Below are positions 3,149 to 5,433 of a stretch of 5,433 bases of DNA, in pieces. The stretch spans positions 1-5,433 of the forward strand of contig JAUUYV010000155.1 in assembly GCA_030590275.1 (NCBI GenBank), in the 5' to 3' direction. This stretch comes from Porticoccaceae bacterium (GTDB taxonomy: Bacteria; Pseudomonadota; Gammaproteobacteria; Pseudomonadales; Porticoccaceae). Positions within the stretch are counted from its first letter, which is position 1, and each line of letters begins with the position of its first letter. Below the pieces are notes generated by a model. It saw only the letters and a program-made list of their open reading frames with translations. It was not told the origin of the DNA and did not search any database. A program made the translations under genes and the position numbers.

Positions 3149-3556
3149 TTACTCAGTATCCAATTCGCACAAACCATCAAAAATCAAACCTTCGTAACTC
3201 ACAATACCAACAACCTTACCGTCACTTATCACGGGCGCATTGGACAGCCCTACTCTATCAAATAATCTTGCGCAGTAGCGCACATCGAGTTCAGGGTCGA
3301 CGGGGATCACGGGTTTGGACATAATTTCATAGACATTAACGCGATCGGGCGCCCGATCTTTCGCCAGCACCTTTTTAGCGATATCAGACAATAAAACTAT
3401 CCCAAAGGCATCGTGCTCATCACGTTTTTTAACGATAACGACATCCGTCCTATTTGTTTTCATCGCATCAAGGGCTTCCTTGACCGTTGCCAGGCCATCC
3501 AGCTCTAGATGTTTTTCATGCATGACATCGCCCACTTTTATAACCTTCCTGTTCAT
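3149..3556 (-). CDS. Tandem CBS-domain protein (stand-alone Bateman module)
   Basis: This 135-residue soluble protein consists almost entirely of two CBS domains, about residues 8-63 and 76-128. Each ends in the typical strand-helix signature: GIVLLSDI (52-59) and GIVSYEGL (117-124). No enzymatic, membrane or DNA-binding domain is attached, so it probably acts by binding a ligand and touching a partner protein. Family knowledge: paired CBS domains form a Bateman module that often binds AMP, ADP, ATP, SAM or a cyclic dinucleotide. In the usual G-h-x-S/T-x-x-D ribose/phosphate motif, repeat 1 keeps D58 but has Leu at the S/T position, while repeat 2 keeps S120 but has Gly123 in place of Asp, so the two sites may not be equivalent. 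The ATG shares one base with the stop codon of the PII-like gene (TAATG), and GAGGAG lies eight bases upstream. It is the last gene of the DUF1538 operon, which points to regulation of that membrane system. Confidence 0.92.
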   Translation of the reverse strand: MNRKVIKVGDVMHEKHLELDGLATVKEALDAMKTNRTDVVIVKKRDEHDAFGIVLLSDIAKKVLAKDRAPDRVNVYEIMSKPVIPVDPELDVRYCARLFDRVGLSNAPVISDGKVVGIVSYEGLIFDGLCELDTE

Positions 3557-3906
3557 TACAGTAACTCCTCCACCTCACTGGTGATTTTCTCTACTTGTTT
3601 GCCTACCCCAAGGGCATCTTCGACATCTATCTGAAACGCGATACCCGTACCTGGCTTAGCATCAAACTCGCCAATACGGTTAATTTCCTCCAGAATATGA
3701 CGGCTTAAATGTTCCTCTACAAGAAACACAACGACGTCTCTTTGAGTTTCCAGCGACAGACCAAAAAAAGTTTTACTTTTTTTTAATCCCTCCCCGCGAG
3801 CGTTATTAATGACAGTAGCTCCGGTAGCTCCAGCTGCCCTTGCTGCATCTACCACTGCATCCGTCTTGTCGTCTTCCACAAAAACCATAATTACCTTGAA
3901 ATGCAT
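3556..3906 (-). CDS. PII-like signalling protein (P-II/GlnB superfamily)
   Basis: The 116-residue length is close to the roughly 112 of GlnB. Seen: the ferredoxin-like beta-alpha-beta start (2-34, with GATGATVI at 26-33), a T-loop-like segment at about 38-57, a second beta-alpha-beta (57-95), and a B-loop-like stretch KPGTGIAF (84-91) followed by the strand QIDVEDALGV. Compared by eye with GlnB, the T-loop region is about four residues shorter and has no tyrosine equivalent to the uridylylated Tyr51. The Lys90 and Arg101/Arg103 phosphate contacts are not evident. It is therefore a divergent PII-like protein, unlikely to control glutamine synthetase, and more likely to gate the membrane proteins encoded next to it, as PII proteins do for transporters such as AmtB. 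It begins nine bases after the second DUF1538 gene, with GAGGTG five bases before the ATG. The ligand is unknown. Confidence 0.88.
   Translation of the reverse strand: MHFKVIMVFVEDDKTDAVVDAARAAGATGATVINNARGEGLKKSKTFFGLSLETQRDVVVFLVEEHLSRHILEEINRIGEFDAKPGTGIAFQIDVEDALGVGKQVEKITSEVEELL
3763..3783. repeat. A/T homopolymer palindrome inside the PII-like gene
   Basis: On the plus strand, seven A then GT, a TTT loop, then AC and seven T form a perfect 9-base inverted repeat with a 3-base loop; an eighth T follows at 3784. On the coding strand it encodes residues 42-48 (KKSKTFF) of the T-loop-like segment. The run of eight A presents A AAA AAA in the reading frame, a slippage-prone arrangement. A minus-one slip there would meet a TAA two codons later. 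Whether it does anything is unknown; lysine and phenylalanine codons alone could produce it. Confidence 0.7.
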
Positions 3907-3915
3907 GCTTTCACC

Positions 3916-4752
3916 TCACACAGATTTTGATTGCTCATCGGCACTATCTTTTCTTGCCTGTATTTTTTTCGAATAACTAGACCTTAGTTCTGATAACTGG
4001 GCGTAAGCCATAACCGACATAATAGGGAAGACGCTCGCGAAGGCTATCAAGCCAAAACCATCAATCAAAGGGTTTCTACCGGGCACCGCCTCGGAGAGTC
4101 CAAGACCAAGCGCCGCGACCAGTGGCACGGTAACAGTGGAGGTAGTAACACCCCCGGAATCATAGGCTAGCGGTATAATAAGTTTCGGAGCCATCGCAGT
4201 TTGCACTACCACGACAAGATATCCGGCAATAATGTACCAGTGAATAGGATCGCCAGCCACAATCCGATAGCAACCTAAAGAAATCCCTACAGCAACACCA
4301 ATCGCCACCGAGATTCTCAGACCCCAGACTCCGATAGCTCCACCTGATACCTCGTTAGCTTTAATCGCTACCGCTATCAACGAGGGCTCAGCAATAGTAG
4401 TGCTAAAACCTATTAAAAAAGCAAACAAATAGACCCAGAAGTAGTCTTGCCATTGTATGGCTACCAGCGAATCTGCTGCTGATTCGGTGGTTGATTTCGC
4501 CACGTTTATGAATGTCGGATCGGTCAACTGTTCCGCCATAAGGCGACCGAGGGGAAACAAACACCACTCTAGACCCAACAAGAAAAAAGACAAACCAATT
4601 AATACCCAGACAAAGCCAAGCAATATTTCACCCAGGCCAGCAGGCTTTTTTCTTATCACCAAAAACTGGAAACCAAAAATGATAACGGCAATAGGAACAA
4701 CATCTTTAACCGTGCCGAGTATGGTGCCCACTAACTCGCTAAAAATATTCAT
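3916..4752 (-). CDS. DUF1538 family integral membrane protein B, putative transporter or channel subunit
   Basis: This 278-residue protein has many hydrophobic segments (about 18-34, 41-62, 104-130, 143-165, 170-188, 193-222 and 232-252) and a charged, probably cytoplasmic tail (254-278). Motifs typical of DUF1538: [13 protein letters not shown] (117-129), [15 protein letters not shown] (197-211) and [16 protein letters not shown] (225-240). The first two resemble each other (a TT followed by a conserved P-L), suggesting an internally duplicated fold with two re-entrant or broken helices, as in many secondary transporters; this is inference. It is a paralogue of the gene just upstream, whose last four bases it overlaps (ATGA), so translation is coupled; I see only a weak GGGA upstream of the ATG. 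The soluble PII-like gene follows after nine bases. The family has no function that I can state; a transported ion or small solute is plausible. Confidence 0.9.
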
Positions 4753-5433
4753 TTGAGCAACATCCCGTAGGCCATAACGAAGATAATCGGGGTCAAAGAT
4801 GCAAAAGCTATCAAACCAAAACCATCGATCATCGGATTCCGACCCCGGATCGAAGAGGCCAGGCCAACCCCCAACGCAGTCACCAGAGGCACGGTAATTG
4901 TAGAGGTCGTAACACCCCCGGAGTCATAGGCAATACCGATGATCTCCTTTGGTGCAAACATGGTCATTATTACCACGAGCAGATAACCGCCGATGATTAT
5001 CCATTGAATCGGCCAGCCTTTTAGAATACGAATCACACCAACAACGATGGCGATACCGACGGACAGCGCAACCGTAAGCCGTAGGCCGGTGGCATAGCGG
5101 ATTCTTGCCTCCTCAGAGTTAGCAATCATCCCACCCCTGGCAGCAACTTCTGCTGCCTCGGCGGCAACGGCAATCAAAGCGGGCTCGGCGACAGTGGTGC
5201 CGAAACCCAGGGAAAACGCAAACACCAGGAGCCAGGCTACACTGCCTTTACGAGCAAAGGCATGAGCCATGGATTCGCCGATAGGAAAAAGTCCTTGCTC
5301 CAAACCGTGGATAAAAAAAGTCAGTACCAGGATGATAAACACCAGGCCCAGAAATAGCTGACCAATATTGGGTAAGGGCTGCTGTAAGACCAGGAACTGG
5401 AAGAAAAGTATGACCACCACGATGGGTAACAAG
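4749..5433 (-). CDS. DUF1538 family integral membrane protein A (5' end cut by window edge)
   Basis: 227 codons are visible before the TGA at 4751-4749. The reading frame is still open at the right edge. The first full codon (TTG, 5432-5430) aligns with residue 18 of protein B ([16 protein letters not shown] against [16 protein letters not shown]), so I infer that about 17 N-terminal residues lie outside the window; TTG is not the start. The same motifs occur as in [14 protein letters not shown] (78-90 of the visible part), [15 protein letters not shown] (168-182) and [16 protein letters not shown] (197-212). The two proteins differ in the loop before the first motif, where B is about 22 residues longer, and in the loop after it, where A is about 10 longer ([10 protein letters not shown]). 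A lacks the charged C-terminal tail of B. The pair probably forms a heteromeric membrane complex. It is the first visible gene of the operon; its promoter lies off the window. Confidence 0.9.

Follow-up and report, generated by a model that had tools for sequence, protein, structure and literature searches.

The 5,433-nucleotide stretch of DNA analyzed here (the window: positions 1 to 5,433, forward strand, of contig JAUUYV010000155.1 in assembly GCA_030590275.1, from a Porticoccaceae bacterium) carries four minus-strand genes in the order DUF1538-DUF1538-PII-CBS. An earlier note, made from the letters and their translations, had picked them out as a tightly joined operon encoding a candidate ligand-gated transporter, and its account of the junctions is exact to the base in the open reading frames (ORFs) of the window. 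Gene A, encoding an UmpA-like DUF1538 membrane protein, runs from 4749 to beyond 5433, its 5' end lying outside the window and its start unconfirmed. It overlaps by four bases (4749-4752) with gene B (3916..4752), which encodes a 278-residue, UmpB-like DUF1538 membrane protein. A nine-base gap (3907-3915) separates gene B from the gene of a 116-residue PII-like protein of a non-canonical subfamily (3556..3906), and this gene in turn shares one base (3556) with that of a stand-alone, 135-residue CBS-pair protein (3149..3556). Both membrane proteins belong to Pfam DUF1538 (PF07556), scoring 233.5 bits (A) and 223 bits (B) against a gathering score of 22.6. Pfam agrees with the note on the two soluble proteins as well, since the PII-like protein scores 40 bits against P-II (PF00543, cut-off 25), which makes it a member of the PII superfamily, and the CBS protein scores 58.9 bits over two stretches against CBS (PF00571, gathering score 24), which makes it a paired-CBS protein.

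This arrangement is conserved among the closest relatives of the locus, for which we used the best 80 of 270 related loci, all taken from genome contigs. In 78 of the 80, all four genes lie in the same order on one strand, and the two exceptions are a locus that stops inside umpB (L043) and one that starts in umpB (L068). A counterpart of gene A with 72-86% identity lies upstream of gene B in the same 78 loci and in L043. By tblastn, both PII and CBS are found in 79/79 loci reaching past umpB; a stricter script based on hidden Markov models (HMMs) finds PII in 78/79 and CBS in 74/74 of those with enough sequence. The tight junctions recur too. Among loci aligned from residue 1 onward, the A/B junction has a median gap of -1 with an overlap in 48/63 loci (an extreme of -804 is a script artefact), the PII/CBS junction has a median of -1 with an overlap in 36/38 loci, and genes B and PII are separated by 20.5 bases at the median (n=62). 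Because any further neighbor family recurs in 9 of the 80 loci at most, the conserved module consists of just these four genes.

A wider survey covered 398 evenly drawn Pseudomonadota genomes, 126 of which contain PF07556. Neighborhoods were taken from the clusters listed together with weaker classes and cover 122 of these 126 genomes; the cluster count is without G160, G222, G276 and G040, although the last of these (locus L229) has all four genes. Once the duplicates L090, L097, L104 and L110 (the same as L206-L209) had been dropped, there were 128 clusters, of which 123 were usable, having at least 300 bases downstream, and the other five were left out. PII adjoins DUF1538 in 118 of the 123, 116 of them called downstream by script and two read individually, namely L121, in which PII lies directly upstream of a second pair, and L197, in which an over-extended ORF hid it. 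One cluster (L182) was counted as positive though most of its PII gene is hidden by undetermined bases (N). At the level of whole genomes, a PII-like profile (E 1e-8) has matches in 125 of the 398: both families occur in 120 genomes, DUF1538 only in 6, PII only in 5 and neither in 267 (Fisher p 3.7e-87). Among the six genomes with DUF1538 only, a stretch of Ns hides PII in one (G176), the matches are cut by contig ends or are small fragments in four (G285, G240, G222 and G276), and a DUF1538 pair without PII is present in the last (G249).

The association also extends to nine plasmid records, from Alphaproteobacteria and, in six cases, Clostridia, which carry a DUF1538 homologue at 26-32% identity. 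PII adjoins it in 9/9, seven of these PIIs being annotated as "P-II family nitrogen regulator" and two, unannotated, being found by HMM. The pairing of DUF1538 with PII, which spans Pseudomonadota and Clostridia, is old, and a conserved DUF1538-PII module is well established on present data. The statement in the earlier note that DUF1538 genes often lie beside PII-like genes holds, the link being nearly universal in this sample. Its suggestion that all of this forms one conserved module stands for PII but not for CBS as a core part. Among loci with enough sequence, CBS follows DUF1538 in 37/67 pair loci, 3/4 short fusions and 0/22 long fusions; it is a lineage-specific, optional partner outside the near-invariant core.

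The fusions are informative in their own right. The DUF1538 family comprises pairs, fusions of about 500 residues and fusions of about 590 residues, and fused homologues occur, among the protein matches listed, in Persephonella, Hydrogenimonas and Nitrospinae. Long fusions are accompanied by two PII-like ORFs in 16/22 cases, the second often weak, and in the six Clostridia records (L251, L252, L254-L257) a fused DUF1538 precedes one protein in which both halves are PII-like, as called by our own profile (Pfam, on one record, recognizes the second half only). Two fused DUF1538 domains go with either two separate PIIs or a double one, and such matched fusions and duplications suggest that the stoichiometry is fixed. 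Two loci, L266 and L267, are composite operons reading PII-DUF1538-DUF1538-PII-CBS-(fused DUF1538)-PII-CBS, so that PII occurs three times and CBS twice in each. A 759-residue metagenomic protein (P0122) has three consecutive DUF1538 domains on a single 2.5-kb contig, which could be an assembly artefact or a hint of a higher-order assembly.

What the membrane pair does is suggested by UmpAB of Halomonas zhaodongensis. A 2017 study showed this DUF1538 pair to be a Na+(Li+,K+)/H+ antiporter of two components, with activity over the range pH 6.5 to 9.5; its subunits co-immunoprecipitate, which speaks to their association and not to stoichiometry (PMC5484666). The earlier note had taken the pair in the window for membrane proteins of unknown function and substrate, a view that is outdated given this relative. 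The two systems share a pair of overlapping DUF1538 genes in the same order, with an overlap of four bases in the window and one base in the published umpA/umpB (PMC5484666), and the best NCBIfam matches of A and B are the equivalogs UmpA (NF041627) and UmpB (NF041628). However, gene A, truncated by the window, scores 361.6 bits against a curated cut-off of 490, and gene B, which is complete, scores 330.6 bits against 500. Because of these sub-threshold scores, the pair in the window is, judged by sequence, a diverged relative of UmpAB and not a certified equivalog.

The published clone also helps to assign roles to the soluble proteins. The main text of that paper has 0 occurrences of PII, P-II and CBS, and the active clone from H. 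zhaodongensis described there held four ORFs, including a 402-residue MFS protein, umpA and then umpB as the last, with no PII or CBS (PMC5484666). We looked for the corresponding region in other genomes. The UmpB cut-off is passed by 0/369 genomes of a gammaproteobacterial sample, the 20 best loci of which all read A-B-PII-CBS, and by 2/390 genomes of an order sample. In both genomes that pass it, PII and CBS adjoin umpAB, and at the loci of the order sample with E 1e-120 or better, PII is present in 5/5 and CBS in 4/5. One genome of this kind (G1045, 505.3 bits for UmpB) has a 402-residue MFS protein (MFS_1, 121.5 bits), umpA, umpB, PII and CBS in that order. Because it repeats the published order and then continues with PII and CBS, the 2017 clone probably ended just short of these two genes. 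Since that clone was active in E. coli apparently without them, PII and CBS would not be needed for transport as such, and synteny indicates that they are probably regulators and not parts of the transport machinery.

Structure prediction for P0121, a fused DUF1538 homologue, is of high confidence, with a predicted local distance difference test (pLDDT) score of 90.3, and shows two broken helices per half. The breaks fall at a TTxAEP motif, which in UmpB of the window is TTIAEP (residues 118-123, 4384..4401, minus strand), and at a DSGGVTT motif (residues 198-204, 4141..4161, minus strand). Across 422 aligned DUF1538 domains, conservation is 97% or higher at each of T119, A121, E122 and P123, and D198, T203 and T204 reach 1.00, 0.98 and 0.97. 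No convincing fold match for DUF1538 was found among solved structures, and the DUF1538 profile had no sequence match among solved chains. It might be argued that the window pair moves another ion or small solute, Na+(Li+,K+)/H+ antiport being confined to a Halomonas-like branch or being a side activity. The scores below both NCBI cut-offs, the split of the family into three classes and the single characterized pair among the literature matches listed all lean that way, but the two motifs are near invariant and genomes scoring above the UmpB cut-off have the same module, and we find this alternative doubtful. DUF1538 is listed among key pH-adaptation genes in a machine-learning study of bacterial growth pH (PMC13255231), consistent with involvement in pH homeostasis.

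The PII-like protein is, on sequence grounds, not a canonical GlnB/GlnK. We compared 218 module-type PII rows (209 distinct; some are second PIIs, and one or more come from outside the DUF1538 cluster) with canonical PIIs pulled from the same genomes without any motif requirement. Whereas Q39, Y51, K58, K90, R101 and R103 are each present in 27/27 canonical PIIs, module-type PIIs have Q39 in 16/218, R103 in 4/218, and Y51, K58, K90 and R101 in 0/218. The B-loop, PGTGI in the window (residues 85-89, 3640..3654, minus strand, placed by conservation), keeps the canonical G87 in 195/218 and G89 in 216/218. The T-loop (residues 36-57, 3736..3801, minus strand, placed by a structure model and conservation) is largely a low-confidence loop in the model, and is as conserved as the rest of the protein (mean majority 0.68 vs 0.64). 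In Foldseek, the model of the window PII gave tied matches that include GlnK, GlnZ, TTHA0516 and CPII, which is carboxysome-associated; since CPII and TTHA0516 are tied with many other PII structures, they show no special kinship with the window protein. Among solved PII sequences, none matched it significantly (best E 0.027). Among the residues lost here are nucleotide-phosphate contacts of canonical PIIs. One genome (G883) has three module-type PIIs, with no canonical GlnB/GlnK-type PII found in an assembly that may be incomplete.

Two characterized transporter-PII pairs offer a guide to how such a protein might act. GlnK gates AmtB by inserting its T-loop, and SbtB acts on SbtA in a form bound to adenosine monophosphate (AMP) (PMC10710835). 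As in GlnK-AmtB, a PII-fold gene adjoins a transporter gene in the window, but AmtB is an unrelated trimeric ammonium channel and the window PII lacks Y51, K58, K90, R101 and other canonical residues. SbtB-SbtA likewise joins a non-canonical PII-like protein to a Na+-linked transporter, although SbtA belongs to a different family and transports bicarbonate. For the CBS-pair protein, the closest relative among solved structures is the CBS portion of CBS-CP12 (5nmu, E 2.1e-21), a cyanobacterial protein that can bind AMP and forms a hexamer, according to a review; the window protein differs in sitting with a transporter, and no CP12 part was matched in it in the Pfam scan.

We therefore favor a reading in which the four genes encode one regulated transporter, a PII-gated, energy-sensing cation/proton antiporter, to which we give a probability of roughly 0.55. 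The DUF1538 pair would be a secondary antiporter of UmpAB type, exchanging Na+ and/or K+ for H+. A PII-like protein, trimeric as its family would predict, would dock by its T-loop on the cytoplasmic face of the antiporter and hold it shut, or perhaps open, making PII a likely direct regulator. Its ligand would not be 2-oxoglutarate but, most likely, an adenine nucleotide, and in lineages having CBS the CBS-pair protein would add a second, AMP-type adenylate input, the proton gradient then not being spent on cation exchange when the energy charge is wrong. By analogy with SbtB and CBS-CP12, adenylates are our best guess for the ligands of both proteins. The earlier note had left room for any nucleotide second messenger, a proposal that we can narrow. 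According to a review, the targets of cyclic diadenosine monophosphate (c-di-AMP) include KUP K+ transporters and an osmolyte transporter with tandem CBS domains, so it might be the signal here too, as it is for other potassium systems that contain CBS or PII-like components. A diadenylate cyclase domain scores over the cut-off in 29 of 80 genomes carrying both DUF1538 and PII, but in the other 51, including all nine known Gammaproteobacteria (G001-G004, G011, G694, G809, G883 and G1045), none does. For this reason c-di-AMP is unlikely as a general ligand, and we regard it as very improbable that it is the signal here.

Several observations weigh against the PII-gated antiporter. Both DUF1538 proteins of the window fall short of the UmpA/UmpB cut-offs, and nucleotide binding by the PII-like protein is not assured because phosphate-contact residues of canonical PIIs are lost. 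The PII and DUF1538 trees correlate (r 0.74 over 192 loci, eight named loci being left out), as would be expected from shared descent alone. No PII lies nearby in five of the 123 clusters (L117, L157, L160, L174 and L177), four of whose genomes have a PII of the module kind elsewhere (G125, G097, G088 and G120). Conversely, 19 loci (L210-L228) have a PII-like gene of the module family with no DUF1538 seen nearby, the contig ending just upstream in two of them (L221 and L225). The PII-like genes of L210-L228 adjoin argB-like, SH3-like and FAD-dehydrogenase-like genes, named by a look at the sequence only, and five of the genomes concerned lack any DUF1538 match. The 19 loci, together with the many soluble targets of PII proteins in general, could mean that PII and CBS are outputs: the DUF1538 pair would sense ion or pH state, and PII and CBS would carry that signal to different targets in the cell. 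We consider this unlikely, since tight linkage to the transporter and the known transporter-PII pairs make gating the simpler explanation and no other gene is conserved nearby. Contact cannot be read from gene order alone, and the four proteins might simply be co-transcribed and serve one stress response without touching. However, PII adjoins DUF1538 pairs and fusions across Pseudomonadota and Clostridia while other neighbors change freely, and the non-canonical PII retains a conserved T-loop, which together make mere co-transcription improbable.

If PII does gate the antiporter, the DUF1538/UmpAB antiporters present in 126 of the 398 Pseudomonadota genomes would gain an energy-sensing switch, one that the functional study of UmpAB could not see with a clone seemingly ending at umpB, and PII control would reach beyond the uptake of nitrogen and carbon to the balance of sodium, potassium and pH. 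The odds seem to us evenly balanced for a broader proposal, namely that a widespread antiporter class is under its own dedicated PII, which would respond to a signal other than the 2-oxoglutarate, adenosine triphosphate (ATP) and uridylylation sensed by canonical PIIs, with CBS serving certain lineages as an additional sensor of energy state, and that either UmpAB is threefold-symmetric or PII controls a non-trimeric transporter. Among the open-access matches listed, no paper joins DUF1538 or UmpAB with PII or CBS, a scope that leaves subscription journals and preprints mostly outside, where an earlier report is possible; one paper containing both "UmpA" and CBS was rejected because UMPA there means something else.

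The rest of the window is occupied by two RND efflux genes (1754-2848 and 3-1751) that start about 300 bases past the CBS gene. They encode a periplasmic adaptor and a permease, the latter cut by the window end, and lie outside the conserved module. Their position recalls PII-NG of Geobacter, a PII clade whose genes adjoin those of the proton/cation antiporter CzcABC (PMC7726332), in that RND genes adjoin a PII module here as well. The two are likened by gene neighbors and not by PII-NG sequence, and they differ in that relatives of the window RND permease lie inside the fetched flanks of only 5 of the 80 related loci, DUF1538 being the constant partner of PII here.
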